DNA of 64,000 nt from IMG/VR virus record IMGVR_UViG_3300020603_000015, positions 1-64,000 of that record; one strand, written 5' to 3'. Below are positions 24,843 through 49,244 of this stretch, piece by piece. Each line of letters opens with the position of its first letter. Position 1 is the first letter of the stretch. This DNA comes from a virus. Made by a program: the position numbers and the translations under genes. The notes below the pieces were generated by a model. It did not search any database and was not told the DNA's origin. It worked only from the letters and a program-made list of their open reading frames with translations.

Positions 24843-25855
24843 ATTTTAATGATCTTACTAGCAGACCCTTTTTCTCTCATATATCTATTGAATTCAACAA
24901 ATAAATCTTCCGCATTCATTCTGGCATCTACTTCCCAAGGTAGAGTTTTTTCTTTTTCTTCATCGTCATATTTAGGATATTCTTTACCATCCCAACTATT
25001 ATCTACAATGTTGTATCTACCATCTTCAACTTGTTTGATGTGCCAGCATTCGTGTGCTAATGTTTTAATTTGATTATCGCTACTATGAGGACTGTTTGTT
25101 CTCATAATAATCTTATAGCTGTCTACTTTATATGGTTTACTCTTACCTTTAACATCTACCTTACCCTGAACTTTTCCATCTAAATTACCAAACTCTAATT
25201 TGATTTTACCGGTGGGTAGATTTAATCTTTTAGCAAAAAATTTATACGCAGTTTTAAGTCTTTCTTTATCAACGATATTTTTTAGTATTTCATTTAAATT
25301 AGTACCAAATTTAGGTAAATTATCAACCTCATGTTTTAAAGGTGTAGACAAATCAACCAATTTATACTTGATTGGCAAATTCTTAATTGAATTGAAAACT
25401 GTATTAACATTCTTTGGACTATCATCGATAAAAAATATATCATTAAATCCTTCGTTATTAATTTTATCAACAATCCAATCCGCTTTAGCCTGCGGATTAC
25501 CAGTTCCAAGAGTTATAACCGGCAAATCAATTTTAAATATCTTATTGATAATATTCTTGATGTGCTTATTAGCTTCATCTCCTCTAGCCGTCAGTATGAC
25601 AGTCAACCTATCTTTAACGCCTGCATTTACAATTTTATAAAATCGTTTAGCAACTGGCTTAATGATTTGAGGATTAATAATTGTTTCAAATTGACTGAAA
25701 TCAAACTCATCTCCTGGTTTTGGTTCATAGACTGCATATTCAGCAGGTGTAAGATATGAAAACTTACCAGGCCCTTGCTTTAATAATACCTTTGCGGTTG
25801 TATGAAAAAGTGTATCGTCAAAATCAAACACCCTTAATTTTTTGGTTTGAATCAT
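24839..25855 (-). CDS. HAD phosphatase fused to an HExxH metallopeptidase-like domain
   Basis: A 338-residue protein with two recognisable parts. The N-terminal domain has HAD motif I (VFDFDDTLF; Asp11 and Asp13), motif II (VILTARG near residue 86) and motif IV (IFFIDDSPKNV near 140). Residues about 200-338 carry LAHECWHIKQ (His268, Glu269, His272), the HExxH zinc site, and WEVDAR at 307-312, whose Glu308 may be the third ligand. The gene overlaps both neighbours with ATGA-type junctions. A possible protease site (LNE) lies between the domains. Function in virion or cell is unknown. Confidence 0.75.
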   Translation of the reverse strand: MIQTKKLRVFDFDDTLFHTTAKVLLKQGPGKFSYLTPAEYAVYEPKPGDEFDFSQFETIINPQIIKPVAKRFYKIVNAGVKDRLTVILTARGDEANKHIKNIINKIFKIDLPVITLGTGNPQAKADWIVDKINNEGFNDIFFIDDSPKNVNTVFNSIKNLPIKYKLVDLSTPLKHEVDNLPKFGTNLNEILKNIVDKERLKTAYKFFAKRLNLPTGKIKLEFGNLDGKVQGKVDVKGKSKPYKVDSYKIIMRTNSPHSSDNQIKTLAHECWHIKQVEDGRYNIVDNSWDGKEYPKYDDEEKEKTLPWEVDARMNAEDLFVEFNRYMREKGSASKIIKI

Positions 25856-27132
25856 AGTAAAGCCTTAATAATTTTTTTGTAAATTGATTCTTTCTTAACT
25901 AATTGATCCAATGGCACACCTCTATATTTTTGTCTTATTTGCGCAATAGGCATACCATATTGTTTTTCAGCCTGTGCTGCTAAACTATATCTATCAAGCT
26001 TTTCTTTTTCTTTAGCATGTAGTTTACGTGATACACTAGCCGCAACAACACTTTTTACATTGTCGGTATAATACTTTTCACCCGAATTCAATAAATCATT
26101 TAGTATCTTAATTTCAATTTCTAAACTATCCACTTCACGTTCCAAATTGGCTTTTTCAGCAGTTGTAAACTTTGCTCCTGTTGTATGTAATTTGCCTCTC
26201 TTTTCAACAAACTCTTGGGTCTTATCATCAATTACTTTTTCTAATGATATACCAGCTGGTTTATTATCAGGTTCCAAAAATGCATAGGAAATAGTTTTTT
26301 CAGAATCTATTGGTGCCATTGTTGGCATATCTGTATCAGTTATTACTATAGTAACATTATTACCATCAATGAATAATACATCACCGAAAATTTTCATGCC
26401 TTTTAATTTTACTTTGTCTCCAATCGTAAAATACTTTGTAGCTTCATTATCATCAGATTGTGATTTAGGTGTTGTAGGTGTCGTTGGTTCTTTCTTGGGT
26501 TCATCAATACCATACAATTCATTGTAGGTATAGATTTTGCTGCCTGGTTCATATAATACTTCTTTTACATTATAACCATTGAATTCTATGGCATATTCAT
26601 ATTCTTTCTTAAACGGCATCAATTTAGACAAATTAGATGTCCAAAATGATACAATAATAGCTTTACCTCTTGGAATAGCTGATTCAATTTTTATATCTAA
26701 ATTTGTAGTTGTTGTTTCTTCAGAATCATCATCTACTTCGAATATCCTACCCTTTAGTAGTGGATCGGCATAAGGACCAAATCTACCAAGACCTTTTAAT
26801 AAATTTTCTAGTTGTAAATGACCACCGCCATTATTTCCGCTCTTTAATTGTCTTAATGCTTTTTGTGCCCAATAATCAAGTTGATCACGATCAGATGTAT
26901 ATTGTATATCAGGAGCTTTATCCAATTCATCAATCTCTTTTAGTACATCCGGATCATCACAAAGAAATACTTTTTTAATAACGCTATATCCAAATACCAA
27001 ATTCTTATTTGCTTTTTCATCTTTATAAACAAGAAAAGCACATTTATTAGCTGGAGTAGAGTAATTATAAGTCTTTTTCTTAAAATATACGGTATCTGGA
27101 TTTTCAATCAAAAGTCGGTTTAAACTAATCAT
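25852..27132 (-). CDS. Probable capsid-targeted protein with leader MISLNRLLIE, function unknown
   Basis: A 426-residue protein opening with a 10-residue leader that aligns with the T4 capsid-targeting sequence and offers a LIE|N protease site. Its own family is unknown to me. A KOW-like small beta domain occurs near residue 240 (FTIGDKVKLKGMKIFGDV), preceded by a Thr/Pro/Lys linker (EPTTPTTPKSQSDDNE). The C-terminal 120 residues are helical and charged (VDSLEIEIKILNDLLNSGEK), ending with LDQLVKKESIYKKIIKALL. It is the first of three coupled genes with the HAD-peptidase and the cupin-like protein. Packaging in the head is a prediction from the leader. Confidence 0.72.
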   Translation of the reverse strand: MISLNRLLIENPDTVYFKKKTYNYSTPANKCAFLVYKDEKANKNLVFGYSVIKKVFLCDDPDVLKEIDELDKAPDIQYTSDRDQLDYWAQKALRQLKSGNNGGGHLQLENLLKGLGRFGPYADPLLKGRIFEVDDDSEETTTTNLDIKIESAIPRGKAIIVSFWTSNLSKLMPFKKEYEYAIEFNGYNVKEVLYEPGSKIYTYNELYGIDEPKKEPTTPTTPKSQSDDNEATKYFTIGDKVKLKGMKIFGDVLFIDGNNVTIVITDTDMPTMAPIDSEKTISYAFLEPDNKPAGISLEKVIDDKTQEFVEKRGKLHTTGAKFTTAEKANLEREVDSLEIEIKILNDLLNSGEKYYTDNVKSVVAASVSRKLHAKEKEKLDRYSLAAQAEKQYGMPIAQIRQKYRGVPLDQLVKKESIYKKIIKALL

Positions 27133-27137
27133 ATAGT

Positions 27138-27146
27138 TATAAATAT
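27138..27146 (-). promoter_or_regulatory. ATATTTATA element before the MISLNRLLIE gene
   Basis: Reads ATATTTATA on the coding strand, 5 bases before the ATG at 27132. The plus-strand copy serving the divergent hydroxylase gene is only 23 bases away. Confidence 0.5.
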
Positions 27147-27168
27147 TATTTGTAGGATATATCGTTTG

Positions 27169-27177
27169 ATATTTATA
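27169..27177 (+). promoter_or_regulatory. ATATTTATA element before the plus-strand hydroxylase gene
   Basis: Reads ATATTTATA on the plus strand, 6 bases before the ATG at 27184. This is the same orientation relative to its gene as the minus-strand copies, which supports a directional role. Confidence 0.5.
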
Positions 27178-27183
27178 TGAAGA

Positions 27184-27735
27184 ATGATATTAATGACATT
27201 TTTAACCATATTGCTACTAATTCTCTGGTGTAGTATATTTGAGTGGCTATTACATAAATATTTGATGCATAAGTCACTTTTCAAGTTTGAATACGCGTAT
27301 AAAGCTCACACCAAGGTACATCATAATATTTATAAGTACGACGAAACTTATCACGCTCAAAATGGAGATGATGGTAAAAAGATTCCTATGGCTTGGTGGA
27401 ATGGCGTGGTAATCTCATTACTAGCTGCATTACCTATGTTTATATTTGGATATAAAATATTCTTGTTAACATTTGTTGTGTCTATGTGTTATTACGGAAT
27501 GTATGAATTTATACACTGGTGTATGCATTTTCCAAAAAGTAGAAATGTAGAATATAGATTATGGTTTAAGAAACTAAACGGACACCATTTATTACATCAT
27601 AGATATATGCATAAAAACTATAATGTGGTACTGCCATTTGCTGATTGGTTATTTGGTACTTTATTAATAAAAAGTCCAATTAAATTTGGTCAATGTAAAC
27701 CATCTTATTGTGTACCAAATGTTCAGCCAGAATAA
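27184..27735 (+). CDS. Fatty acid hydroxylase-superfamily membrane protein
   Basis: A 183-residue plus-strand protein. A hydrophobic N-terminus (MTFLTILLLILWCSIF) and two further membrane segments (about 75-95 and 95-112) surround histidine clusters typical of di-iron membrane hydroxylases and desaturases: EWLLHKYLMH, HTKVHH, HWCMH and HHLLHHRYMH. These match the HX3-4H, HX2-3HH spacing of the fatty acid hydroxylase / carotenoid hydroxylase superfamily. It could alter host lipids, which is unusual for a phage. The ATG at 27184 is preferred; an 18-codon frame starts at 27177 but stops early. It overlaps the end of the convergent kinase gene by 13 bases. Opposite orientation to its neighbours suggests separate acquisition. 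Confidence 0.8.
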   Translation: MILMTFLTILLLILWCSIFEWLLHKYLMHKSLFKFEYAYKAHTKVHHNIYKYDETYHAQNGDDGKKIPMAWWNGVVISLLAALPMFIFGYKIFLLTFVVSMCYYGMYEFIHWCMHFPKSRNVEYRLWFKKLNGHHLLHHRYMHKNYNVVLPFADWLFGTLLIKSPIKFGQCKPSYCVPNVQPE

Positions 27736-28532
27736 TTACTTCTAGGACGCATTGGTTCTATATTAGGATAAACCAAGTCTAGATGATCAAAATCGTCTTT
27801 AGTAGTGTCTACTTTTTTGACATTATTATAATAATTTTGCAACCACATCTTACCGGTTGGATTCTTAACAGGACTCTTCAAGAATTGAATCACACTTCTC
27901 AATACACTTTTATCGATTGGCTCACCACTTTTTGTACGATCAACAATCTTGAAATTGTTCCCAAATATGTTTTGAAAATGTCCCATGTTATTTTGACAAC
28001 TGAACCACATTTGCGACAATAAATCTTCAGGTATTTTACGAGGTCTTTTATTGTTTCGTTCGATTGCTACTTGCAAGCTTGTGTTTACAAATATCATATA
28101 ACAATCATAACCATATTGCTCCATAATTCTTTTCTTTATTTGTATGGATTGTATACTATCACCTGTACCATCTATGATAAGACCCAATCGGGAGTTTCTA
28201 TACATGACCAATTTTTTATTTGTTATTTGTTTTGCTTTTTCTCTAGTAGATTGTGGGCCGATTGTCAATTTTTTAAATTCATCTGGACTCAACTTACTCA
28301 AATCAGATGAAATCTTCATTTTCTGAAGCATTTGTTCAAATTCATTATCACTGTTGATTAACTTTAACCCATACTTGTTGACCGAGGAATCAGACGGTAA
28401 ATCAAACAATTCATTTGCAACTGTGCTTTTACCACTACCAGGTCCACCCGCCATAAATATACATTTGAGTGTAGATGGATCGTCTACACCTTCTGTCAAT
28501 CTGTTTTTTTTAAGTAATTCAAGTAAGTTCAT
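27723..28532 (-). CDS. Zeta-toxin-like P-loop kinase with capsid-targeting-like leader
   Basis: A 269-residue protein. Residues 29-37 have the Walker A AGGPGSGKST, and later NGLIIDGTGD-like and VNTSLQVAIERNNKRPRKIP stretches resemble nucleotide-handling zeta toxin/adenylylsulfate kinase-type P-loop enzymes. The first 14 residues (MNLLELLKKNRLTE) end in an LTE site where a gp21-type protease could cut before Gly15. The leader is longer than the other copies here. The phosphate acceptor is unknown. The ATG follows an AT-rich leader with a partial version of the start-proximal motif. Confidence 0.75.
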   Translation of the reverse strand: MNLLELLKKNRLTEGVDDPSTLKCIFMAGGPGSGKSTVANELFDLPSDSSVNKYGLKLINSDNEFEQMLQKMKISSDLSKLSPDEFKKLTIGPQSTREKAKQITNKKLVMYRNSRLGLIIDGTGDSIQSIQIKKRIMEQYGYDCYMIFVNTSLQVAIERNNKRPRKIPEDLLSQMWFSCQNNMGHFQNIFGNNFKIVDRTKSGEPIDKSVLRSVIQFLKSPVKNPTGKMWLQNYYNNVKKVDTTKDDFDHLDLVYPNIEPMRPRSNYSG

Positions 28533-28547
28533 ATATTTAAATATAAT

Positions 28548-29381
28548 TCACATTACGAATATATCGCCTATATTAGCTCCTAAAACATCTTCAATTAGAT
28601 ATGGTATTGTATTTGCAATATTATCTAATTTTTCTTGTGCTTCTTCTAAATTTTGTGTGGTTGCTATAGTTTTGCTACCATAAGGACCAAATCCTACCAA
28701 AAGCTTTTTGGTAAGAGGATTAAATGTAATTTTACCGTCTTTTAAATATTGTACAAACAATTCATAGTAAAATTCGTAGTATCTACGATGTAGTTTACCT
28801 TCTCTGGCACTACGCATTGTACCAATATGGTTAAACAATCTACCTTTGGCTAAATCAAATGTTCTGGATTTTTTATAATCATCACTGCCATATCTTGTGT
28901 TTTCTTTGCTTTTACCGTAAATCTTTAACAGTTCATTAAATTCTTTATCAACCCAGTCAGTATATTCTTTGAATTGATGTGTTTTATTCATTACGTGACC
29001 TACTCTATGAATTATAGTCCACGCAGTCATAGGAATTTTATCAGCGGCTGTATTGCTTACAAAGAATACTGTGATGTTATCACTATTGATTTTGAATTGG
29101 TTAGGATCTAAACCCAAACCTTCTGGATATGGTTTTACGAGAAATTCGTATGGTACTCTACCTTTTTCGCTGAATTGTCTTAAACCAGGCTTGTTAACAA
29201 AATAAAAATCAAAGTTGACTGATGTATTTTTTAACATATCCTTGACTTTTTGTATGGTTACTGGATGACTTAGTGCAGCTCTGTCTCTTGGATCTTTGTA
29301 TGAAGCGCCTTTTTCAAATCCGCCTAATGTTGTATATGCGCCTAGGGGGGCTTCGTTTAGTATATCTTTAAATTTGATCAT
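28548..29381 (-). CDS. Probable capsid-targeted protein with HRVGH motif and leader MIKFKDILNE
   Basis: A 277-residue protein whose leader MIKFKDILNE|A matches the T4 capsid-targeting sequence MKTYQEFIAE|A in length and character. Near residue 125 it has WTIIHRVGHVMN, which looks like an HExxH metal site with Glu replaced by Arg, and it is followed by a His-containing helix. It may be an inactive relative of a metallopeptidase or simply a structural motif. Residues about 190-215 have KLHRRYYEFYYELFVQYLKDG. It overlaps the upstream 311-residue gene by 4 bases (ATGA). Packaging is inferred from the leader. Confidence 0.72.
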   Translation of the reverse strand: MIKFKDILNEAPLGAYTTLGGFEKGASYKDPRDRAALSHPVTIQKVKDMLKNTSVNFDFYFVNKPGLRQFSEKGRVPYEFLVKPYPEGLGLDPNQFKINSDNITVFFVSNTAADKIPMTAWTIIHRVGHVMNKTHQFKEYTDWVDKEFNELLKIYGKSKENTRYGSDDYKKSRTFDLAKGRLFNHIGTMRSAREGKLHRRYYEFYYELFVQYLKDGKITFNPLTKKLLVGFGPYGSKTIATTQNLEEAQEKLDNIANTIPYLIEDVLGANIGDIFVM

Positions 29382-30313: not shown

Positions 30314-30350
30314 CTGTTAATAAATATTAAAAAAACTCACTTGGAAAATA

Positions 30351-31007
30351 TCATAGAGAGTAATTAGTTCTGTAGGATTGGACAATTGCCCACTTATTTT
30401 CGGGTTGAAATATTTGAGGATACTTTAAATACGAAGCATGTCCATCTGCATATATATATGATGCTCCATTGTTGTGCTTTTTAAAATCTAATTCAGTTTG
30501 ATCATTACCTTTTCCTTCAAATATATCCATATAAAAATGTCTTGAATTTCCTAACTTTTCCCCAAATATTACTGTTTCACTTACGAATAGAATGGAACTA
30601 GACTTCAATGGTTCCTCTAAAATGTCCCAATCCGCGTCAAAATATTCATAGTAATAATCATTAAATCCATTGATTATAAAACTACGATTTGATTTGTTAA
30701 TGTTTGTTTCAACTAGATTATTTGTAAATTTATCGACAGGACATCTTAATATACCAACATTCTCATAATATGGTTTTAATGCTAATGGCCACTGATTTGT
30801 CAAACTACGCGGCGGATATATGTCATTATAATCTAACTTATATTGTTCAGCTGAAAGACCCAATTGCCTAGAGTTGTTTAAACATTGTATTTGAAGCGCT
30901 TTACTTTTTGCTTTACTCAATGATGGTAATAAAAGACCGGCTAATATTGCAATTATAGCTATTACCACTAGTAATTCAATCAAAGTAAATGCTTTTTTAT
31001 TTTTCAT
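30351..31007 (-). CDS. Type II/IV pseudopilin with H-X9-DG motif
   Basis: A 218-residue protein with a textbook prepilin N-terminus: MKNKKA then [22 protein letters not shown], with cleavage predicted after Ala6 and the Glu5 of the mature pilin. The C-terminal part has [14 protein letters not shown], in which His178 and Asp188-Gly189 are separated by exactly nine residues. This H-X9-DG arrangement marks pseudopilins typical of Planctomycetes, Verrucomicrobia and Lentisphaerae. Phages rarely encode such proteins, so it points to the host lineage. The protein would be processed by a host prepilin peptidase and could enter host pilus or secretion machinery. It starts 3-4 bases from a preceding very short frame and is followed by the 311-residue gene. 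Confidence 0.88.
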
Positions 31008-31104: not shown

Positions 31105-31240
31105 ATCTTCTTCTTACATTCTTCTTACATTCTGGTTCTACTCGATCTTATAACATGTAATCCGCATGTAGGAATTACTTGTGTCATCAAACAACCACAC
31201 TTAACATGTCTATTTTTAGTTAATATCATACTCTTATAAA

Positions 31241-31270: not shown

Positions 31271-31292
31271 TTGTCATAAATTTATTATTTGA

Positions 31293-32183: not shown

Positions 32184-32186
32184 AAT

Positions 32187-32789
32187 TTACCAAAATCTAC
32201 CTCGGCCTTTATTACCTAAACTGCGCATACGATGACTACGACAACTCCAATAACCGGCTGTTGTTCTGTCTTTCTTTTGAGCACATCTATGTCTAGCAGC
32301 AAAACTTTTTCGACGAGCTTTATTGCCTGCTCTACTTCTCATATTTGGATCTCCGAATGTTACTTTCTTGATTTTACCATTTTTACCTTTGACGTAGACA
32401 GCATATTTTTTTGGTCCACCTGGAGTTCTAACTGGTCTATTAAGTGTAACACTTCTGCCACGATGTTTAGCTTCAATTATCAAATCTTCTTCAATTTCAA
32501 TCGGAGCATCCAAATAAACTTCTCTACCCTCAAAAATTTCTTTTTTACCAAGGTCACTCTCAACCAATTCAGCGTCTGGATCACATAGTTCAATTAAATT
32601 ATTGTAATATAACTTACGAACTTCTTCAATTAACTCAAAATAAGATTCACTATAAGTTCTAAAAATGTTTTCCATTAATGGAATTTGTTTTTCTAAATGA
32701 TAATTTAAATTAGCTGTAATTACTGTATCTTGCAGCATTTTCATCGGACAAAGTTCTTGATTTTCAAATAAATCGATTAATTTAATCAT
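32187..32789 (-). CDS. Probable internal head protein with leader MIKLIDLFE
   Basis: A 200-residue protein. The 9-residue leader ends at LFE|N, a gp21-type cleavage site. The middle is acidic and hydrophobic, and the last 70 residues are very basic: YAVYVKGKNGKIKKVTFGDPN, then RSRAGNKARRKSFAARHRCA and a TTAGYWSCRSHR stretch. I recognise this C-terminal type from structural or decoration-like proteins of large phages, though not its function. The basic tail suggests contact with packaged DNA. A decayed copy of this end lies 400 bases downstream at 31620-31768. Confidence 0.78.
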   Translation of the reverse strand: MIKLIDLFENQELCPMKMLQDTVITANLNYHLEKQIPLMENIFRTYSESYFELIEEVRKLYYNNLIELCDPDAELVESDLGKKEIFEGREVYLDAPIEIEEDLIIEAKHRGRSVTLNRPVRTPGGPKKYAVYVKGKNGKIKKVTFGDPNMRSRAGNKARRKSFAARHRCAQKKDRTTAGYWSCRSHRMRSLGNKGRGRFW

Positions 32790-32801
32790 ATAATATAAAT
32801 A

Positions 32802-33794: not shown

Positions 33795-34568
33795 ATGTCA
33801 AAATATTGTGATACATCGTTAATTGACATCAAAAGTATCAATAAAAATGTTGCAAAAACACTTATTGAAAAAAATCATTACACTCACAAATGGAGTTTAT
33901 GTACTGTAGCTTATGGTGTTTATCATAAAGAATATATAGAAAGCACATTCTTTGGTGGTTATAACGAAAAATTAATTGGCGTATTGATATACGGAAATGC
34001 AGTAGGTAGAAATGCCAGTACAAGCATATCTCCACTACTTACTAACAACAATGTACTAGAACTTACAAGACTGTGGATATCTGATGGTTATGGCAAGAAT
34101 ATTGAAAGCTATTGTATTGCTGAAAGTTTTAGATTATTAAACATCGAATATCCCCACATAAAATGTATATTAAGTTACGCTGACAGCGAGGTGGGTCATA
34201 AAGGTACAATATATCAAGCAACAGGATTCCTATATCAAGGGGATAATTATGTAGATATAGCACTAATGCCTAACTATAGTGTTAGTTTAAACGGTCCTCC
34301 TAATTATGAGTGGATACATAGTAGAAGTGTTTATGCTAGATGGAAAACACATAGTGTGGATAAACTAAAAGAACGTATAGGTAGAACATTTTGGCGCAAA
34401 CGTGAAAGCGGTAAACATCGTTATATCAAGTTTATTGGCAACAAGATAGAAAATAAAAAGTTAGCTAAATCACTAAAACATAAAGTTCTACCTTACCCAA
34501 AAAATACTTCGTTCAAAGAAGAAGTAACGGAAATCCTTGTGGAAAATATCAATCAATTTTTTGAATAA
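33795..34568 (+). CDS. mom: Mom-like DNA adenine modification enzyme
   Basis: A 257-residue plus-strand protein. Motifs that align with phage Mu Mom include IEKNHYTHKW, LELTRLWISDGYGKNIES, and KCILSYADSEVGHKGTIYQATGFLYQG, with KHRYIKFIG near the end. Mom converts adenine to N6-carbamoylmethyl adenine and protects DNA from restriction. The start at 33795 gives a complete domain. It is convergent with the pyrophosphatase gene, and a bidirectional terminator separates the two. I see no Com-like activator in this window. Confidence 0.82.
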   Translation: MSKYCDTSLIDIKSINKNVAKTLIEKNHYTHKWSLCTVAYGVYHKEYIESTFFGGYNEKLIGVLIYGNAVGRNASTSISPLLTNNNVLELTRLWISDGYGKNIESYCIAESFRLLNIEYPHIKCILSYADSEVGHKGTIYQATGFLYQGDNYVDIALMPNYSVSLNGPPNYEWIHSRSVYARWKTHSVDKLKERIGRTFWRKRESGKHRYIKFIGNKIENKKLAKSLKHKVLPYPKNTSFKEEVTEILVENINQFFE

Positions 34569-37887: not shown

Positions 37888-39009
37888 TTACTTCTTAATT
37901 CCTGCGAGCTTTTGGAATCTTGAAGCCATCACATCAGCTTGAGGTTCTACAATGGTAGATTCAGGCTTTGTGCTGGATACTGGTTTGCTTGCCAAACCTT
38001 CGGTGATAGTACTTACAGTTGCATTTGTCTTCTTTTTAACAACTGATCCACCTCCATTAATTGATTCGGCCAAAACTGTATATGCCAACTTGACTTCACG
38101 AATATTTTTAGTCAAGTCGAAAGTGTTAATAATCTTCAACTTTTGTTCTTCGGTCAAAGTCTTGCCCTTGAACAACTTGTTGGTGTATAGCAACTTAGCA
38201 TTTAACAAATTGGTTTCTGATAGAACACCTTTCAAATACTTGACAGTTTCTACGTGTTCACTCAATTGGTTCTTCAATGCTTCGTTTTCTTCATTAATAG
38301 CTACTAGAGCTTCTGCCATTTCTTCACAGGTTACATCCCCTTCAGATGGTGATGGAACTTGACCTGGGGCAGGAGCTGCGGATGCGGCTGGAACTGCTTC
38401 TGGAGCAGCTGCAGCTGGAGCAACAGGAGCGGCTGGAGCTGCTGGAGCTGCTACGGCAGCAGCGGCTGGATCGACGTTTTCTTCTTCAGTTTCTAGTTCT
38501 GCTAGAAGTTCATCTAAATTTACTGTTTCATCCATATCATCCATTTCCTCCAGGCCATCCGCATCTTTATTGATGCTTTCGTCTTTCTCTGGTTTGTCTG
38601 TGTCATCATGTCTGTGTCCGACCTCACCTTCTAGCTCTGCTAGAATTTCTTCAAGTTCTTCGCTGGTTACTTCGGCACCCTCTTCTTCTTCAAGCTTAGC
38701 AACTTCAGTTTCGTTACCACTTGTTTCGGTTGATGTCTTGTTAGCCGAAGCAGATGGAGATTTTGGATGTTGCGTATCAGCAGTATTACCCTTTTCACCG
38801 CCGATACCGGATGAAGCTAACTTTTCTTCAACTTTACCTTCTTTAGTTTCGGTGTTTTCTTCTTCAACCATTTCTTTCTTGAGTTGGTCTGCGAACATTT
38901 CTTTCATGCTCTTAGCAAAATTTTCCTCAAGAAAAGTTTTTGCATTAGCAATTGCAGTTTCACGAACTGCCTTTGCGTCTGCGATGCTTTCCTTTAATAG
39001 ATCGCTCAT
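37888..39009 (-). CDS. gp22: Prohead scaffolding core protein (T4 gp22-like)
   Basis: A 373-residue, very acidic protein between the capsid and the protease side, in the T4 order. It is dominated by Glu/Lys/Asp helical segments, with an Ala/Pro linker at about residues 185-225 (such as AAPAAPAAPVAP). It starts MSDLLKE|S, which again offers a gp21-type site at the extreme N-terminus, and contains further LxE sites, consistent with scaffold breakdown during head maturation. A ribosome binding site (GAAAGG) precedes the ATG. It is larger than T4 gp22 (269 residues). Confidence 0.82.
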   Translation of the reverse strand: MSDLLKESIADAKAVRETAIANAKTFLEENFAKSMKEMFADQLKKEMVEEENTETKEGKVEEKLASSGIGGEKGNTADTQHPKSPSASANKTSTETSGNETEVAKLEEEEGAEVTSEELEEILAELEGEVGHRHDDTDKPEKDESINKDADGLEEMDDMDETVNLDELLAELETEEENVDPAAAAVAAPAAPAAPVAPAAAAPEAVPAASAAPAPGQVPSPSEGDVTCEEMAEALVAINEENEALKNQLSEHVETVKYLKGVLSETNLLNAKLLYTNKLFKGKTLTEEQKLKIINTFDLTKNIREVKLAYTVLAESINGGGSVVKKKTNATVSTITEGLASKPVSSTKPESTIVEPQADVMASRFQKLAGIKK

Positions 39010-39158
39010 ATTAATTTTACCTTTCTTATATTGTTTGTGAAGTTATTATAGAACTCCAAAGAAGATTGATTTTTTGTAGACATCAAATGATTGACGTATT
39101 TAATAAATAAATATAATTAAAATGCATAATATATTAAAAAAAATCATATTTATTGTAT

Positions 39159-39770
39159 ATGCCTGCTAAAAGTGAAAAACAAGCAAGACTATTCAGATTA
39201 GTACGTGGATTACAAAAAGGTGATATATCACCAAATAAAGTATCTCCACAAATTCTTAAAATGGCAAAAACAATCAAACCAACTAGTGTGAATCATTTTA
39301 TCAAAATTAAAGAAATACTTCACAAATTAAAAGAAGGATACAAAGAAAGTGGATCTGAATATACTCTTAGTAAGGCAAAAGAAATCATTGATAAACCGTT
39401 TGACCAAGTATTAAGAGAAAATGTTGGTCTACCATTTAATCAAAAAGAATTATTAGTATTTCAATCCAAACAAAATGGATTTGCTGGGTTTGGAAAAACA
39501 AATTTTATACACAAAAGAAGCACCGGTGAAATCATCGCGGATATACATAGTAATGATTCTTCAAAAAAATTTGTCTTCAAAAAGTTAGCCAATAATCAAA
39601 ATAAAGGTCTTTATAACTATGCTTGTTTTATCAGAATTATGTCAGATGATACAGATAAACCTGAAGATAAAGTGTTTTATACACTAAGTAATATTTTTGA
39701 AGATGATGAATCTGGGAAAACCAAAGTCTTATCAGACTTTATTGATAGAATTAACTCATATGGCCTATAA
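39159..39770 (+). CDS. DUF3008-like small phage protein with an added C-terminal domain
   Basis: A 203-residue plus-strand protein starting MPAKSEKQARLFRLV at 39159 (a TTG at 39153 also lies in frame). Its N-terminus matches the MPAKSxxQxR type of short phage proteins of unknown function (DUF3008-like). The C-terminal 120 residues include ENVGLPFNQKELLVFQSKQN and FVFKKLANNQNKGLYNY and are unassigned. It sits with one more plus-strand gene between the scaffold and core genes, which is a polarity change inside the head cluster. The gene overlaps the following plus-strand gene by 11 bases. Confidence 0.65.
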   Translation: MPAKSEKQARLFRLVRGLQKGDISPNKVSPQILKMAKTIKPTSVNHFIKIKEILHKLKEGYKESGSEYTLSKAKEIIDKPFDQVLRENVGLPFNQKELLVFQSKQNGFAGFGKTNFIHKRSTGEIIADIHSNDSSKKFVFKKLANNQNKGLYNYACFIRIMSDDTDKPEDKVFYTLSNIFEDDESGKTKVLSDFIDRINSYGL

Positions 39771-40191
39771 TTATAATCCAAAATTTAAAAATTACATTGA
39801 ATCACAAGATAGTAATTTGAAATTTATTATTAATAAAGATAGAGATAATCATGATTTTAACTATAGACCTACAACTATGAAAATGAAAAACTTTCTTAAT
39901 GTAGAAACTGAAGATAATCCTAAATATAAAATAATGGATATCGATAATCCAAACGGATGGTCATTTAATGAACTTGATACATTAGGTCACATGGGGTTCA
40001 AAATGGATAATGACTATGATATGACCTGCGAAGTAGAGATTCCATCACTTGAAATGGAAAATGAAAAACAATTTGTTAAGATTTATAAAGAAGAAGACGG
40101 ATATGTTTTAGAAACAACTCGTCGTTACGTATTTGAAAGTTTTAATAAACTATTGGAATTTATTGATAATATTCCAACAAAGATATTTTAA
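39760..40191 (+). CDS. Hypothetical protein coupled to the DUF3008-like gene
   Basis: A 143-residue plus-strand protein. I use the ATG at 39760 (MAYNYNPKFKNYIESQ), which overlaps the end of the upstream gene by 11 bases, as in a coupled pair. It contains NGWSFNELDTLGHMGFKMDND near the middle and an acidic C-terminus. No family is evident. It converges with the 154-residue minus-strand gene, overlapping its end by 4 bases. Confidence 0.6.
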   Translation: MAYNYNPKFKNYIESQDSNLKFIINKDRDNHDFNYRPTTMKMKNFLNVETEDNPKYKIMDIDNPNGWSFNELDTLGHMGFKMDNDYDMTCEVEIPSLEMENEKQFVKIYKEEDGYVLETTRRYVFESFNKLLEFIDNIPTKIF

Positions 40192-40652
40192 TTAGGTTGG
40201 TCGATATCTCTTGAAGAAACAATGCTAACTGAATCAGGTCTACCTTGTACTTGATACGATTGAGGAGATTCCGTAATTGGATCCGCAATCTCAAAATAAC
40301 GTTCTAGTTTCATACCGATTTCTTCATAAAGCATTTCAAGTTTGTGTTCTATTTCTTTAATCTTTTGTGATTCTTCGTAAAGTTTACCGGCCATCCTCTT
40401 TACTTCTTTCATATCACGTTCAACCATCTTAGCTTCCATCCAATCACCACACTCCTTTAGTGTGTAACGCTCGGCTAAATTAATCACATCAATAATTTTA
40501 TGTGCTGTTTCATAAATAGATTCAGCCTTTAAGCTCTTGCGATATTCATTATAAGCTTTGATGGTTTCATATAGCTTTACTTTTTCTTCTTTTGTAAGAG
40601 GAGTATAAGCAACTTCGGTTGAATTCTCTACTAGATGTTTTAGCTTTATCAT
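40188..40652 (-). CDS. Probable internal head protein with leader MIKLKHLVE
   Basis: A 154-residue, highly helical protein. The leader MIKLKHLVE|N fits the capsid-targeting pattern with an LVE cleavage site. The rest is a series of charged amphipathic helices (LTKEEKVKLYETIKAYNEYR, then EVKRMAGKLYEESQKIKEIE), like T4 internal proteins or core proteins. It lies directly after the protease gene, a position compatible with the prohead core. An ATATTTATA element lies 5 bases upstream of the start. Confidence 0.7.
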   Translation of the reverse strand: MIKLKHLVENSTEVAYTPLTKEEKVKLYETIKAYNEYRKSLKAESIYETAHKIIDVINLAERYTLKECGDWMEAKMVERDMKEVKRMAGKLYEESQKIKEIEHKLEMLYEEIGMKLERYFEIADPITESPQSYQVQGRPDSVSIVSSRDIDQPN

Positions 40653-40657: not shown

Positions 40658-40666
40658 TATAAATAT
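40658..40666 (-). promoter_or_regulatory. ATATTTATA element upstream of the MIKLKHLVE gene
   Basis: Reads ATATTTATA on the coding strand, 5 bases before the ATG at 40652, between this gene and the protease stop. Confidence 0.5.
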
Positions 40667-40674: not shown

Positions 40675-41277
40675 TTACAATTCGGAAAGAATATTATGAA
40701 TTAATCTTTCTGCATTTGTATAAGGATTTACGATAATTTTATTATCTACACTTTCGTTGATTTTACCTTGTGGATACATGAATGCACCTTGTGTGCTTGG
40801 ATTGCTTACAAAGTCAAAAGCAATTAAATCAAAATCATCTTGTACAATATCAGCACCTTCACGCATATCTTTCTTTACACTACCTAGACCACGACTACTA
40901 ATACCCAATAGAATACCAGATTGTAATAGATCTTTTAAAATATTACCACTGGGTGTAGGAAGAATTTCTACAGTACCAACCAAATCTTTACCATCCCATC
41001 CCATGTCAACAATGTTATGGCTAACATTCTTTAAATTAACAACGGACGATTCTGGATGGTCAAGTTCGCCCATAGCACGACGTTGCTTTACAAAGTTTTC
41101 CATATACTTGTCAGCTTCACGTTTTAATACGTCTTCTGGATATAAACGACCATTTTGGTTCTTTGCGTCAGCACGTTGTAATACTCCACTAACTAATAAT
41201 TTGCCGTCTTTTAAAGACTCATTTAATGAAGTTTTTTTAAATTTGAATGGTAATACATCAATTAATATTTGTTTCAT
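40675..41277 (-). CDS. gp21: Prohead core protease (T4 gp21-like)
   Basis: A 200-residue protease of the T4 gp21 type (S80). His74 lies in GELDHP, and Ser127-Ser128 in GILLGISSRGLGS, spaced as in gp21 (His-Ser about 53 apart). DLVGTVEILPTPSGN matches the strand between them. The first 20 residues end in SLNE|S, which could be an autocleavage site. The start at 41277 follows the end of the upstream gene by one base; a longer frame from 41331 lies within that gene. This is the enzyme expected to cut the leaders of the capsid-targeted proteins. Confidence 0.88.
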   Translation of the reverse strand: MKQILIDVLPFKFKKTSLNESLKDGKLLVSGVLQRADAKNQNGRLYPEDVLKREADKYMENFVKQRRAMGELDHPESSVVNLKNVSHNIVDMGWDGKDLVGTVEILPTPSGNILKDLLQSGILLGISSRGLGSVKKDMREGADIVQDDFDLIAFDFVSNPSTQGAFMYPQGKINESVDNKIIVNPYTNAERLIHNILSEL

Positions 41278-41278: not shown

Positions 41279-42367
41279 TTAAGCAGTAGGTTGAGTTCCT
41301 GGTGGCTTTTCACCAGCGGTTTGTTTAGCAACTGCAGGCTCGTCAGATGTTACAACATTTGATGGTTGTGTAACAACTTGTTTATTTGGATCAACCAAAG
41401 CCTTTGATTTAGCAATTTGATATTGATCTTTAGGTTTCACATCTGCCTTTCCTAAAATTCTGATTTTAAATCCTGGTTTAATAAAGAACTTAGCAACTTT
41501 TTGTTTACTTTCTTCACGACCCGTTATTACAATTACATATCTATCATAATAATAATCAATATTTACTCCTGTAACGTTGATTGTATAATCTGCTTCTGGT
41601 TGTTTATATCCCTTACTAGCACGCACAACTATCTTTTTATCCAAAATAGCATCTTGAATTTTTCTTTGTAAATTAGTCTTTAATTGTTCAGTACTATCCT
41701 TTAATTTTGAATCAAAATCTGTAAAATCGGTTTGTACATTATACGATTGAACATTTATATCTACATTTGATGTTTTTGGTTTTGTTGCGACTGGATTAGG
41801 TTGAGCTGTTGACGCAGCGGTTGCTGGTTCCGCAACTGGTTGACCTTCAACTTCATGTTGTAATTTATAAATTAAACCACCAACGCCTTCTTTACGTATT
41901 TTTTTGACAAGTTTAATAGCTTGTTCGGTCATTGGCAATTGACCTTGTTCATGACCTGCTAAACCAGGATCCAATTCAGGATCACCATGTTGTACTAAAC
42001 CATTTTGATCTCTATAGGTAGATACTGGTTCAATATTTTGAGCAGGTGTTACATAAGCTGGTTCACTATACATTTGATTTTCCAACTTATAATTTTGACT
42101 TTTTTTAACTTTCTTAGTAGGTGTAAATCCGGCTTGATGTACAACGCTTGGTCTAGCACCTTTTCTATTAAAAGCAAATGGTGTAGTACCAATATCACCA
42201 CCCATATGCGCTCCGCCTGTAGCAACGCCCATAGTGCCCGTTGTACTAGCCTCATTCTTCTTTAACTCGGCATCTACCTGATTTTCTATTTTTTCACGAT
42301 AAATTTGAGCATATTTTTTTACAACTTCTCCAAACGAATCGCTAGACTTTTTAAGATGATTTTTCAT
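41279..42367 (-). CDS. Head-associated protein between core protein and protease genes
   Basis: A 362-residue protein that overlaps the upstream 294-residue gene by 17 bases. Its N-terminal 100 residues are basic and Gln/Lys/Glu-rich, and a Gly/Thr-rich segment with TTGTMGVATGGAHMGG at about 40-55 is exposed-looking. Residues 155-190 have an Ala/Pro linker (VAEPATAASTAQPNPVATKP), followed by a folded part with ADYTINVTGVNIDYYYDRYVIV. Its place between portal/core and protease matches T4 gp67/gp68, but the sequence itself does not let me assign a homologue. Confidence 0.62.
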   Translation of the reverse strand: MKNHLKKSSDSFGEVVKKYAQIYREKIENQVDAELKKNEASTTGTMGVATGGAHMGGDIGTTPFAFNRKGARPSVVHQAGFTPTKKVKKSQNYKLENQMYSEPAYVTPAQNIEPVSTYRDQNGLVQHGDPELDPGLAGHEQGQLPMTEQAIKLVKKIRKEGVGGLIYKLQHEVEGQPVAEPATAASTAQPNPVATKPKTSNVDINVQSYNVQTDFTDFDSKLKDSTEQLKTNLQRKIQDAILDKKIVVRASKGYKQPEADYTINVTGVNIDYYYDRYVIVITGREESKQKVAKFFIKPGFKIRILGKADVKPKDQYQIAKSKALVDPNKQVVTQPSNVVTSDEPAVAKQTAGEKPPGTQPTA

Positions 42368-43235: not shown

Positions 43236-43288
43236 TTAAATATAAATATATGTAAAGATTAAAATTATTCGCTATTTATACTTTTCTT

Positions 43289-45166
43289 TTATTCTTTTAT
43301 ATTATTTTCGTCCATAAAAGATGGTTTTTTTACAGACTCTTTCAAAACTTCCTTGGTTTCGAAATCTTTTAACAAAACCGACAATGACTCTAGCGACAAC
43401 GGTGATTTATTTTTATATTTGTGCGTTGGTGATAAATCGCTAACTCTCTTGTTTTCTAAATTACCAAATGGGTCTTCTCCGAATGGGTATTTACTAGCAT
43501 CCTTTCTACCAGTTTGATCTCTTTTCTTTTCAGTTAATTTTGGAGTTTCACTTCCACCACCAGATGATTCTGGGGGTGTACCACCAGCCTCACTGCCAGA
43601 CTCAGTTCCTCCAGTTTCGCCACTACCCGCATCTCCACCAGTATCAGTGCCTCCAGATTCTTCTCCCTTTGATTTTAAGAATGCTAAAGCTGGATCATTA
43701 CCATCTTCTTCAATTTGTTTAAATCTATAAATTCCTTTAGCATCATCGATTAATTGTTTTTGTAAATTAATCATATCTTGCTCAGACATGCTAAATACGT
43801 TATCATAAATCCATTTTTTGCTGAACAATTTTTGTTCTTGCATGTCTTTGGCTACTTCTACTTTGCTTTTCCAAACATCAATCTTTTCCTTTTCAAAGAT
43901 AGTAGATGGGTTTGTTAATTGTAAACTAAAGTCTACCAACGATTCATCTCTATATCCTTGACTATACAAATGAATTACCGCAATCTTGTTCAATTCACTA
44001 ACAATAATACGTTGTACACGTTGAATTGTTCTAGCAAAACGAATATCTTCAGCCGCCAATGTAGCCTTACCAGATAATGATTCATCATACCCCAAGAATG
44101 CCTTTGGAATCTTAAGTGCTGACATCATCTTATTGCGTAGATATTCAATATCATCTGTACCTGTCCATTCTAGTCCAGGCAAATTATCAATACTTGTACC
44201 ACTATCGCCACCACGAACTGGTAGGAAAAAGTCTTCAACCATGTTTTGAAGGTTAAAACGTAAATTATAGTCACCAGTTTGTTGATCCAAATATGGAGTC
44301 TTTTTCATTTGCGCAATAATTCGTTCCATGTGATTATCAACTTCATTTGGAGGAATATTACCAATATCGACTTTAAAAATACGTTTTTCTGGAGCACGCA
44401 TGATGCGATGAATCAACATTGCATCTTCCATTAAACTCAATTGTTTCCAAACACGGCGAGCACCTTCTAACATACTCTTACCATAAGGTAAGAAGTTACT
44501 ATCACTCAGTAAACGAAAGTGTGCAATTTGATAGTTCTCAAGATCTTCAATTTTATTACCATATGGAAGATTAACTTGAAACTTAACAAAATTCTTATTT
44601 TGTAGATGTGCATTTTCAATACGAGTAACATAATATGAACTAAGTGGTTCAACCATGTATACGCCATATTCTGGACTGATATGTAACCTTAAATAAAAAT
44701 CGCCATACTTGACCATGCTACGAGTCCAAGACCAAAGATTAAACTCAATATTAAGAATATCATAAAATAAATTGTTTAATATTTGTTTGATATCATCATT
44801 CGAAGATTGAACAGAGATAATGTCACCCAATTCATTTTTACTTGTACATTCATCCGAATAAATGTCTAATGCAGATGCGAGAATTGGATCCATATCCATT
44901 GTATCATAATCGCGAAATAGTTCTACACGACTACTTTGATAGCTAAGATTAAAGTCACGGGTATATTGATTATATGCGGTAGTTCTAAGACGATTAAAAC
45001 GATCTCTTAAACTATTACGATCTGTAGCATATTGAATTTCATCAGTGTCAATTACCTTTAATTTCTTACCACCAATATTACGTACAATAACATCATTACT
45101 AAAAAGACGTTTTAATCTTGCAAAAAGCGATCTATTCTTTAATTCTTGAAATGATTTATCAGTCAT
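43289..45166 (-). CDS. gp20: Portal vertex protein (T4 gp20-like)
   Basis: A 625-residue protein in the canonical position between terminase and core/protease genes. Conserved-looking regions include RDYDTMDMDPILASALDIYSD, MEDAMLIHRIMRAPEKRIF and PGLEWTGTDDIEYLRNKMMSAL with KIPKAFLGYDESLSGK, all typical of T4-like portals. The C-terminal 100 residues are Gly/Ser/Glu/Thr-rich (GGTDTGGDAGSGETGG type) and probably disordered. It forms the dodecameric ring through which DNA is packaged. The start at 45166 is preceded by AT-rich sequence; a ribosome binding-like GGCGGTAAG lies nearby. Confidence 0.92.
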   Translation of the reverse strand: MTDKSFQELKNRSLFARLKRLFSNDVIVRNIGGKKLKVIDTDEIQYATDRNSLRDRFNRLRTTAYNQYTRDFNLSYQSSRVELFRDYDTMDMDPILASALDIYSDECTSKNELGDIISVQSSNDDIKQILNNLFYDILNIEFNLWSWTRSMVKYGDFYLRLHISPEYGVYMVEPLSSYYVTRIENAHLQNKNFVKFQVNLPYGNKIEDLENYQIAHFRLLSDSNFLPYGKSMLEGARRVWKQLSLMEDAMLIHRIMRAPEKRIFKVDIGNIPPNEVDNHMERIIAQMKKTPYLDQQTGDYNLRFNLQNMVEDFFLPVRGGDSGTSIDNLPGLEWTGTDDIEYLRNKMMSALKIPKAFLGYDESLSGKATLAAEDIRFARTIQRVQRIIVSELNKIAVIHLYSQGYRDESLVDFSLQLTNPSTIFEKEKIDVWKSKVEVAKDMQEQKLFSKKWIYDNVFSMSEQDMINLQKQLIDDAKGIYRFKQIEEDGNDPALAFLKSKGEESGGTDTGGDAGSGETGGTESGSEAGGTPPESSGGGSETPKLTEKKRDQTGRKDASKYPFGEDPFGNLENKRVSDLSPTHKYKNKSPLSLESLSVLLKDFETKEVLKESVKKPSFMDENNIKE

Positions 45167-45191
45167 ATCTTACCGCCATATATATAAGTAT

Positions 45192-46805
45192 TTATAACAA
45201 CCAAGTTAAACTTTCTTTTTTACTGTTTATATTAGCATTTGGGTTGAAATCCCACCCTTCTGTAGGAGAACCAAATGGTTTTGTTAATATAGGAGAATTA
45301 TGAACGCTGGATACTTTACTAATGCCTGCTAACATTTGTCTATTGTAAGCAATCTGATCATTTCTAAGTCTAAGTGCAGTTTCACGTACCCATAATCCTA
45401 TTCCCATAGACATTACCAAATCATCATTGTAGCCACGTAGTGCTTCTGCTTTTGGTCCATTCCAAATAAAAACATTCAACTCTTCATATAATCGTTTCGA
45501 TTTAATAATTACTTGTTTTTGTCTAAAAAATAACTCCAAATTACTTACAACTAATGGTCTGTTTTTAGTAGTTGTAGTAAATCCAGCAACCATCTTTTTA
45601 TCTTGTGCATGTAATTTGTTGCTATATGTTTTTTCCACATCCACAATTGTGAGATCACTTGAACTATAAAACGTATGAGGATAATTTCTGTCAATAATCT
45701 GTTGAAGTGTACCCCAACCAACGTTATTGTTTTCTACAACTAATAGTGCATTATTATATTCAGTAGCAATAGTTACTAATAGATTGCCATAATCTTTTGT
45801 AGTTAATTGCCCTTTATATTCTGCAACTTGTTCCATAGTATCAACATCTATAACATGAAAAGCGCTGAAATCTGCACCATCGCCTCTAGCACAATCAGCT
45901 GTCACTAAATAATTCTTGCTATAATTTGGGTAATCCCATATCCATAAATCTTGATTATTACCTCGCCTTTCTATAGGATCTTTTATGTATGTTTGTTTAT
46001 AAAATTCCAATACATCAACACTAACTACTTGATTGCCTGATGTACTAAAATCACAATCACATTCTTGCGCAGCACCCTTTACACCTGATAATTCTGTCTG
46101 ATTATCTCTCCACGATTGATCTCTTTCTGGATGTAAATGCCATGGCAATTTTATTGTTTTGAATCCTTTTTTACCAGACTTTTCGTTTTCTTCCGATTCA
46201 ATCCATGTTTTATGAAAAAAGTTACCAACGCCGTTCGGTGTACTTAATATAATCGATCTACCACCAGTAGATAAAGTATATTGTGATGATAACCAAATTT
46301 CTTCTATACCATCAATAAACGCAGCTTCGTCTATAATTAACAATGATAATGCTGATGAACGACCTGCTGTGCCAGCCGATGAGACAGCTTTAATTTGTGA
46401 TCCATTCTTTAATCTCAGTGACAATCTATTATCTTCCACACATGGCACTTTTAACCAACTAGGAAGATTATCATTAGCAAATCTTACCTTGGTAACGATT
46501 TCCTTTGCGGTTTCCTGTGTTATACTAATACATAAAATATTCTTATCATTATGGAATGTCATTAACCATAAACTATAAGCAGCAGTAAGAGTGCTAATAC
46601 CCATCTGACGACTTTTAAGAACAATGTTCAATTGATTATCAACAAAGTCTTGTAATGCCTTCTCTTGAAATGGATACAATTCAAATCCAACTGTACCACG
46701 TATGGGATGTTGAATCTTTACATACTTCTTTATGAAGTATATAGGATTTTCAATACATTTTTTATATTCTTGCTTTATTATCTCTCTTAAGTTTTGCTGA
46801 CTCAT
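45192..46805 (-). CDS. gp17: Terminase large subunit (T4 gp17-like)
   Basis: A 537-residue packaging motor. Walker A-like VLKSRQMGIST at about residues 62-72, Walker B SLLIIDEAAF at 153-162 with the catalytic glutamate, and the nuclease domain with YLVTADCARGDGADFSAFHVID near 299-320 are all present. It is shorter than T4 gp17 (610 residues). It overlaps the end of the zinc-finger gene by 44 bases, and the portal gene follows 26 bases later. It powers and cuts DNA during head filling. Confidence 0.93.
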   Translation of the reverse strand: MSQQNLREIIKQEYKKCIENPIYFIKKYVKIQHPIRGTVGFELYPFQEKALQDFVDNQLNIVLKSRQMGISTLTAAYSLWLMTFHNDKNILCISITQETAKEIVTKVRFANDNLPSWLKVPCVEDNRLSLRLKNGSQIKAVSSAGTAGRSSALSLLIIDEAAFIDGIEEIWLSSQYTLSTGGRSIILSTPNGVGNFFHKTWIESEENEKSGKKGFKTIKLPWHLHPERDQSWRDNQTELSGVKGAAQECDCDFSTSGNQVVSVDVLEFYKQTYIKDPIERRGNNQDLWIWDYPNYSKNYLVTADCARGDGADFSAFHVIDVDTMEQVAEYKGQLTTKDYGNLLVTIATEYNNALLVVENNNVGWGTLQQIIDRNYPHTFYSSSDLTIVDVEKTYSNKLHAQDKKMVAGFTTTTKNRPLVVSNLELFFRQKQVIIKSKRLYEELNVFIWNGPKAEALRGYNDDLVMSMGIGLWVRETALRLRNDQIAYNRQMLAGISKVSSVHNSPILTKPFGSPTEGWDFNPNANINSKKESLTWLL

Positions 46806-47409: not shown

Positions 47410-47427
47410 AACAAATATGTATTTATT

Positions 47428-48480
47428 TTATTTACCAAAACCACTTTGTAGTCCCCTAATAATGAAACTACCAGTTATTTTAAATGGCTTACTATGAATA
47501 CTTGGATCTCTTACAACAATGCCTTCATGTTTTTCTAGATCACCAATTTCACTAGTAGCATTCTTGAGAATTTCATCGCCCAACTTGATTGTAGTAATAT
47601 AAACAATAATATCATTAACTATCTTGTCTATGTCTTGACCCTCAAAATCTCGCGTAATATTTTTACTTGCAGCTGCTTTCTGAAATTGTTCACGGGTAAT
47701 TAACGGTGTTTGAATAGTCACATTAGTCAACCAATCTTTCAAACTCTTGGTTACTGGTTTTCCTTGAGGATACAATGTAACTTTTTCGCCCAATGGTTTT
47801 GAAAGATTTGGACGAGTTTTGAATTTAGTATCAACACTTCCTAATACTTTAAATCCATATTTCTTAGCAACCAAATTCAACTTATTGATATAAGATTGCA
47901 TTGCGGTTTTATCATAAGAAATTTCAGTAGCTACTCTTGATTTGACACTACCGTCTTTACCAAATGTCTTTGGCTTTATTTCTTTTAAACCATGAATTGC
48001 CAAAAAGTTACCAATGTCTTCGTATCCAAGAACGTTTGTTTGTCCTTCAACATATTCAATGTTCAACAAAATGTTTGGATTGTTCAATAACCCAAGAGCT
48101 TTCAATTCGTTTTGAGTTGTTGGTATAGCTTCATCAAATATTTGAATGACTCTGGTACCAATCTTAATGAACCCATGTTCTGAACCTGTTTCTTGATTTG
48201 GTAAAAATCTAGCACTTAGATCTTGTGGGCGCATTCCCTTAATGTCTAGTGGTTTCGCACTACCACGGTCCATCACAAATTCTCCATTGACTAAACGAAT
48301 ACTAGCATTGACACCATCAATCTTGACACTACCAGTTCCTTTCTCCAACGATGCGATTGACTTTTGAAAAACGTTTATAAATTCTTTTGCAGTAGATGTA
48401 AAATCAAATGGATGCTCCATATGACCACCAGCACCACCTTCTTTGAGAACTTCCGACAAAATATTACTTAGCTTTATCAT
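47428..48480 (-). CDS. ATP-dependent ligase-fold nucleotidyltransferase with leader MIKLSNILSE
   Basis: A 350-residue protein. The leader MIKLSNILSE|V fits the capsid-targeting pattern. Behind it come MEHPFDF and the ligase motif I VKIDGVNASIRL (Lys53 as the candidate AMP acceptor), a motif III-like NIEYVEG at about 140, motif IV EGIVVRD at 319-325 and motif V KPFKITG at 331-337. It belongs to the covalent nucleotidyltransferase superfamily of DNA/RNA ligases, in a phage family I know as uncharacterised. It overlaps the flavodoxin-like gene by 4 bases. It is probably an RNA or DNA ligase carried in the head. Confidence 0.8.
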   Translation of the reverse strand: MIKLSNILSEVLKEGGAGGHMEHPFDFTSTAKEFINVFQKSIASLEKGTGSVKIDGVNASIRLVNGEFVMDRGSAKPLDIKGMRPQDLSARFLPNQETGSEHGFIKIGTRVIQIFDEAIPTTQNELKALGLLNNPNILLNIEYVEGQTNVLGYEDIGNFLAIHGLKEIKPKTFGKDGSVKSRVATEISYDKTAMQSYINKLNLVAKKYGFKVLGSVDTKFKTRPNLSKPLGEKVTLYPQGKPVTKSLKDWLTNVTIQTPLITREQFQKAAASKNITRDFEGQDIDKIVNDIIVYITTIKLGDEILKNATSEIGDLEKHEGIVVRDPSIHSKPFKITGSFIIRGLQSGFGK

Positions 48481-49244
48481 GGTTTAATAAATGTTTTTTC
48501 AAATGTAGACACACCCTTCAAATAAGAACGAGCAGTTTCATCAAGCGCGTTATCTGTAAATTGCCAATTCCAAAATAATTGATCAGGCGTTTTAAATCCA
48601 AAAAATTCTAGAACATTTTTTTGAATTTCTGCTACATCTTTACCATTCCAATTTTGTCCCACAGCAATAAATCCGGCGTCAATATCTTTTACAATATTTT
48701 TTTCTCCTAGAGTTGAATGTCTATTTTCAATCCAAGTTAGTCTTTCTATAAGTTTTTGATAATAACTATTAGCTTGACCCCATCTTATACTAGCAAAAAA
48801 TACTACACAATCGCTTTCAAATAATTCTTTACTAATTTTCCATAATTCATCACTTTTATCATTGTAACTTGCCCAACAACGATGATATCCACTTGGATTC
48901 TGATCTTTGTTTTTTAATAAAGAACCAATCGTTCCACAATGATTACCACCAAACTCTTTGTTACTACTTACGTTACCTTCACATGGAACAATATGCAACT
49001 TAGTAGTGTCAATTAAGGTTACCTTTTCTTTGCCAAGTAATTCTTGAATTTTGATAGCTAGTTGGCTACTTTTTGGAACGTCTTCTTTGTGTTTGACCCA
49101 TCTGTTGCTAGTGGTTAATAATAAAATTTTGTTTTTACTACGTAAATAATCTATGGTTTTCTTGTATTTTTTGGCATACAAGTCCATATCTTGCTCGCTA
49201 ATTGGTAACTTAGCTTCTATTAGTAGGTCTGAAAGACTAATCAT
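48477..49244 (-). CDS. Flavodoxin/NADPH-dependent FMN reductase-like protein with leader MISLSDLLIE
   Basis: A 255-residue protein with leader MISLSDLLIE|A, again as in T4. The body has a flavodoxin-like pattern: an early hydrophobic strand with LLLTTSNRWVK, a Cys-containing CEGNVSSNKEFGGNHCG element, and SDCVVFFASIRWGQANSYYQKLIE, which is where FMN reductases have the Pro-Val-Tyr loop. Redox activity with FMN is expected, but cofactor residues need checking. It overlaps the ligase gene by 4 bases, so both probably share expression and packaging. Confidence 0.75.
   Translation of the reverse strand: MISLSDLLIEAKLPISEQDMDLYAKKYKKTIDYLRSKNKILLLTTSNRWVKHKEDVPKSSQLAIKIQELLGKEKVTLIDTTKLHIVPCEGNVSSNKEFGGNHCGTIGSLLKNKDQNPSGYHRCWASYNDKSDELWKISKELFESDCVVFFASIRWGQANSYYQKLIERLTWIENRHSTLGEKNIVKDIDAGFIAVGQNWNGKDVAEIQKNVLEFFGFKTPDQLFWNWQFTDNALDETARSYLKGVSTFEKTFIKP

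Follow-up and report, generated by a model that had tools for sequence, protein, structure and literature searches.

The window, that is, the whole 64,000-nucleotide stretch analysed here, covers 64 of the 66 kb of the IMG/VR contig of a freshwater bacteriophage and has a G+C content of 29-38%. A second contig of 78.8 kb (G001) encodes proteins identical to those of the window and continues the genome of the same phage, or of one almost identical to it; relatives of this phage were present on dozens of contigs from other samples. The DNA of the head region had no match among annotated phages, nor did the 255-aa and 350-aa proteins described below in protein searches against annotated phages; the comparisons were therefore made with IMG/VR relatives and distant cultured phages. 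The window contains a cluster of T4-type head genes, all located on the minus strand:

45192-46805, minus strand: terminase
43289-45166, minus strand: portal
40675-41277, minus strand: prohead protease of the S77 (gp21) family, presumed to do the processing (PF03420, 2.4e-29; phrog_207, 8e-54)
37888-39009, minus strand: scaffold/core-like protein preceding the capsid gene, a presumed protease substrate (16 LxE sites versus 6.7 expected)
36070-37836, minus strand: major capsid protein (phrog_138, 1e-69)

The two profile matches bear out the gp21-type protease proposed in an earlier note on this DNA. The scaffold-like protein had no match in a profile search. Two overlapping ORFs on the plus strand (39153-40191) lie within this minus-strand cluster, between the scaffold gene and the gene of a 154-aa protein, and are possibly an insertion or a single frameshifted gene.

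Seven ORFs for which the earlier note had claimed a short N-terminal leader were all found at the coordinates it gave, on the minus strand (the bar marks the predicted cleavage site):

48477-49244, minus strand: 255-aa protein, leader MISLSDLLIE|A (49215-49244), kept in 36/36 distinct homologues
47428-48480, minus strand: 350-aa RNA-ligase-like nucleotidyltransferase, leader MIKLSNILSE|V (48451-48480), kept in 42/42 homologues
40188-40652, minus strand: 154-aa protein adjoining the protease, leader MIKLKHLVE|N (40626-40652), kept in 37/37 homologues
32187-32789, minus strand: 200-aa basic protein, leader MIKLIDLFE|N (32763-32789), phrog_7595 domain at residues 107-184
28548-29381, minus strand: 277-aa HRxGH protein, leader MIKFKDILNE|A (29352-29381), with leader-bearing homologues
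27723-28532, minus strand: 269-aa P-loop kinase, leader MNLLELLKKNRLTE|G (28491-28532), AAA_33 match of 1.8e-11
25852-27132, minus strand: 426-aa protein, leader MISLNRLLIE|N (27103-27132), with leader-bearing homologues

The AAA_33 match supports the kinase label given previously. The label of ligase stands in part: the KIDG, EGIVVRD and KITG motifs were invariant or nearly so among the homologues, but the profile match (RNA_ligase PF09414, E = 0.08) and the best PDB folds, which were RNA ligases (E about 0.1), stayed below significance, and a sequence search of the PDB gave no match. The flavodoxin-like label of the 255-aa protein was not borne out by profile or fold: a profile search found no match, the predicted structure (pLDDT 44) gave no informative fold, and the sole match among PDB sequences was weak (1zx3, E = 0.014). 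Homologues of the HRxGH protein begin with MIKLKDILNE|A/T or MIKLKELLME|V, and those of the 426-aa protein with MVKLIDILVE|N, MIRFKDLLLE|N, MKLFRDLLLE|N or MIKLKNLLAE|N. A gene overlapping that of the 426-aa protein (24839-25855, minus strand) encodes a HAD-like protein with a HECWH-motif domain and itself has no leader.

We found that the leaders follow a compact pattern, M..h..hh.?E, with hydrophobic residues at positions 4, 7 and 8 and E at position 9 or 10. It fits six of the seven, the exception being the kinase with its longer leader, whose LTE|G junction nevertheless recurs in other phages. Position P3 was L in all seven leaders of the window and L, I, V or M in homologues, and the E was invariant. 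A T4-style regex matched six gene starts in the window, whereas 300 shuffles gave 0.23 matches on average and never more than 2. Over 2.25 Mb comprising the window and the loci of its relatives, a stricter regex recovered seven gene families only, six of them from the window and one a new 173-aa family. When five further contigs were taken together with the window's phage, the pattern occurred at 33 of 767 start-proximal methionines versus 2 of 1861 internal ones, a difference whose significance is overstated by the relatedness of these genomes. On contig G005 (303 kb; loci L197-L212), where the genes of the protease, the ligase-like protein and the 154-aa protein recur, the T4-style pattern showed no clear excess despite the same head genes (2 versus 0.95 expected); this contig may be a jumbo phage or a joined assembly. 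The earlier note had suggested scanning with a model of the leader. A position-specific matrix built from the leaders of the window did not work, since the T4 leader scored very low and the virion proteins of cyanophage S-CREM2 were not separated, and hydrophobic-pattern regexes were used instead. A Sec signal peptide was also considered and ruled out: it needs a basic start, a hydrophobic core of 7-15 residues and a small-x-small site, whereas the leaders have 9-14 residues with polar residues interspersed and a terminal E.

The leader was kept in all 115 of the 115 distinct homologues of the 255-aa, ligase-like and 154-aa proteins taken together. In the two families with 10-residue leaders, positions 8 and 10 were fixed, position 4 was L or F and position 7 was I or L, while positions 3, 5 and 9 drifted. 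Mutagenesis of T4 IPIII has shown that residues 4 and 7 serve mainly targeting, and residues 8 and 10 processing (PMC9026906). This match between the constrained positions and the T4 data supports a T4-like capsid-targeting leader. The leaders are real, and chance is excluded as their source. The alignment with the T4 leader, described before as residue for residue, holds for the hydrophobic spacing and the E|A junction but not for overall identity.

Comparisons of homologues showed that the junction is kept even where the start of the protein has changed. In the kinase family, an [LIVM]xE|G junction was present in 15 of 15 distinct homologous sequences, from freshwater phages, pelagiphage HTVC008M, Methylophilales phage Melnitz and Agrobacterium phage Atu_ph07, although the sequences upstream of it are unrelated and of different lengths (for example, MIRLSDLLNE|G, MKNFMQVLNE|G, MKLKEILNKIIQNNYLIE|G, MIPFILKE|G and MKTFAELQE|G). 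In Atu_ph07, L302 and L303 this junction is internal. Two homologues of the HRxGH protein (L245 and L246) carry the leader on an extra N-terminal domain, and IKE|AP or ITE|AP occurs again, internally, where the leader of the window's HRxGH protein ends. For the basic domain, 15 of 16 distinct sequences retained an [LIVM]xE junction; only L374 departs from this, with an IQE close by at a different spacing. A signal linked to the start of the protein would be lost behind a fused domain, so that the retained junctions indicate a protease site. It is a reasonable inference from these sequences that fused cargo would be cut apart inside the head. In Atu_ph07, a 779-codon protein (L216:2257-4593) has the leader-like start MKWNDLNE|A and a kinase after VTE|G; by eye, its upstream domain resembles an ADP-ribosyltransferase. 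No description of fused cargo behind internal LxE sites as a means of multi-enzyme delivery was found in the literature examined.

The distribution of protease sites was then compared among the head genes, as gp21 cleaves after L/I-x-E (PMC9026906). LxE enrichment is limited to the expected protease substrates: besides the scaffold, the 154-aa protein (9 versus 3.6 expected) and the basic protein (9 versus 2.7) were enriched, while portal and terminase were at background and the protein encoded at 41279-42367 had none. The scaffold sites claimed previously were thus confirmed, as was the site in the capsid protein, QLLDE|A at residue 59 (37660-37668), which was kept in 25 of 25 homologues. This is a probable propeptide cut site, positioned like the cut in T4 gp23, whose propeptide has 65 residues (PMC9026906). 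All nine LxE sites of the basic protein fall within residues 1-106, giving an acidic pro-region followed by LIIE|A at residue 106 (32472) and then the basic domain; this last site coincides with the start of the phrog_7595 match, and probably only the C-terminal ~94 residues survive. The 154-aa protein, with its gene next to that of the protease and its many LxE sites, is probably a digested prohead-core protein rather than an injected effector.

To relate the leader to proteins actually found in virions, we matched the virion proteome of cyanophage S-CREM2 (PMC10665884, Table 3) to its genome. The leader was present in 5 of 27 virion proteins without an assigned structural role versus 2 of 165 non-virion proteins (p = 7e-4), with two tighter regexes having been set after the S-CREM2 data were seen; with the looser regex fixed beforehand, the counts were 5/27 versus 6/165 (p = 0.0097). 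The five virion proteins are a SAM hydrolase, an APH-like kinase, a cytidylyltransferase and two hypothetical proteins, and both non-virion matches are small (55-66 aa). A Cas9-like virion protein of the same phage has RFASFMAE|A a few residues inside its start. In S-SCSM1, two clean leaders were found among 281 genes, one of them on NMNAT, which is in the virion. In S-SZBM1, the virion cytidylyltransferase begins with MRFRQFIIE|A, and two of the three matches are small proteins encoded beside a virion gene and absent from the shallow virion data set. Although meant as replications, S-SCSM1 and S-SZBM1 gave no significant enrichment individually; pooling the three cyanophages gave p = 0.010 with the T4-style regex and 0.027 with the looser one. 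A leader-bearing cytidylyltransferase was present in the virions of all three. Overall, these proteomes modestly favour packaging: the signal is clear in S-CREM2 and modest in the pooled set, and all three phages are distant from the window's phage. In T4 itself, the regex recovered IPII, IPIII, Alt and gp24, missed IPI, and also matched the uncharacterised e.6, which has no known packaging. The window encodes a cytidylyltransferase-like protein (13173-13946, minus strand) that has no leader, unlike its cyanophage counterparts.

Composition could in principle produce such starts, since the window is A+T-rich, with I, K and L codons common, and A+T-rich gene starts favour M-I-K-L followed by a random E; the shuffles, the internal-methionine control and the 115 homologues contradict this explanation, which is scarcely credible. 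Short amphipathic N-termini can serve membrane attachment, dimerisation or chaperone binding, and such roles are known elsewhere. A helix of this kind, for which heads would be irrelevant, needs no invariant E with L or I two residues before it, and accounts neither for the site kept internally in fusions nor for leader-bearing proteins in the virions of related phages, so that we regard it as very improbable.

A closer competitor accepts that the leaders target proteins to the prohead core but takes the proteins themselves to be structural or assembly factors that are retained or digested, with no injected effector among them. The 154-aa protein, adjoining the protease and LxE-rich like core proteins, fits this well, and the core proteins of T4 are cut up by gp21 (PMC9026906). 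On the other hand, the enzyme domain of the kinase begins directly after the cut, which offers no particular reason for a structural role; a leader-bearing SAM hydrolase, kinase and cytidylyltransferase occur in sequenced virions; and T4 Alt and the internal proteins are ejected (PMC9026906). We consider this explanation unlikely.

We therefore hold, with high confidence, that these proteins share an N-terminal capsid-targeting sequence like that of T4 IPIII, which is cut by the gp21-type protease. The amphipathic stretch, with its hydrophobic residues at positions 4 and 7, would dock each protein onto the scaffold core of the prohead, and the S77 protease would cut after the (L/I)xE that closes the leader, releasing the mature protein within the head, while also destroying the scaffold and core proteins. 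DNA packaging would then proceed around the cargo, which would enter the host together with the DNA. For the window's phage, docking and cutting are highly likely on the sequence evidence, packaging is very probable, and injection with the DNA is probable by analogy with T4. The likely cargo comprises the kinase, the RNA-ligase-like protein, the basic domain and the HRxGH, 426-aa and 255-aa proteins. The packaged arsenal proposed in the earlier note survives in its core of leader and protease, through the conserved positions, the fusion junctions and the cyanophage virions, but is weaker for the 154-aa protein and for the labels of flavodoxin and ligase. Speculatively, the pairing of the kinase with an RNA-ligase-like protein would be apt for mending cut tRNA straight away.

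The underlying principle is known from T4, in which a capsid-targeting sequence on IPI, IPII, IPIII and Alt is cut by gp21 (PMC9026906; originally Mullaney and Black 1996). As in T4, there are about 10 N-terminal residues with hydrophobic positions 4, 7 and 8, a terminal E and an L/I-x-E site, an S77 protease and an LxE-rich scaffold are encoded in the same genome, and the mature proteins are unrelated. Unlike in T4, more families are tagged in the window's phage and its relatives, many of them enzymes; the start is M-I-K/S-L rather than the T4 consensus M-K-T-Y/F; and in some homologues the site is internal to a fusion. Polyvalent or head-packaged effectors such as ADP-ribosyltransferases (PMC9503650) are likewise enzymes for which carriage in heads and early action are predicted, but there the prediction comes from gene context or from fusion to a head protein such as MuF or portal, whereas here the mark is a short cleavable leader. 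In giant phage SPN3US, N-terminal propeptides of head proteins are likewise removed by a prohead protease, gp245, but its cut motif is AxE and the propeptides have 20-254 residues, in contrast to the shared 10-residue leader (PMC10052503). What is new is the extension of this principle to uncultured freshwater phages distant from T4, a cargo rich in enzymes, cargo proteins fused so that the site is internal, and the link from leaders to unexplained enzymes in cyanophage virions, for which a search of open-access literature found no previous paper.

Further families of leader-bearing proteins were observed in relatives. An RGMS-motif protein of 136 aa, encoded outside the window (G001:1187-1597), carries MKRYSLLYE|S and variants at 50 loci; by this motif it would be ADP-ribosyltransferase-like, and a PDB sequence search gave no match. 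Contig G003 encodes a Mom-family protein (121273-122082; PF25680, 1.4e-24) with MIKLKELILE|G and a GP88-family protein (PF17338, 1.6e-34) with MKFIDLLTE|A, and G006 a protein with a sub-threshold DRAT match and MILLKDLLNE|S. The window has its own Mom-family protein (33795-34568, plus strand; PF25680, 2e-43), which, unlike the G003 relative, has no leader. We lean slightly towards a broader reading, that in T4-type phages far from the coliphages one modular cleavable tag would load an open-ended set of enzymes, with some relatives loading polyproteins that are cut at LxE in the head. If so, the injected effectors of a phage could be listed from sequence by their tag, which would also account for the SAM hydrolase, kinases and cytidylyltransferases in cyanophage virions. 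Few phage-injected proteins are known, since virion proteomics is seldom done and what it finds may be written off as contamination; with a leader that predicts cargo, thousands of uncultured T4-type phages would yield candidates for effectors acting in the first minute, and fused cargo with internal LxE sites would deliver several enzymes from one gene.

Several other features of the window were observed. The sequence TATTTATA occurs at 30 sites versus 14 expected (for example, 27138-27145, 32794-32801, 40658-40665 and 49249-49256), often 11-14 bases upstream of start codons, of leader genes and others alike, and is possibly a promoter or translation element. A pseudopilin-like protein (30351-31007, minus strand) has an N-terminal methylation motif (PF07963, 3e-9) and a weak DUF1559 match; this type is associated with Planctomycetota and Verrucomicrobiota, a possible hint at the host. 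A tail-fibre-like gene with TSG repeats is located at 17735-21124 on the minus strand, and the 659-aa ORF on the opposite strand (18249-20228, plus strand) is probably an artefact of these repeats.
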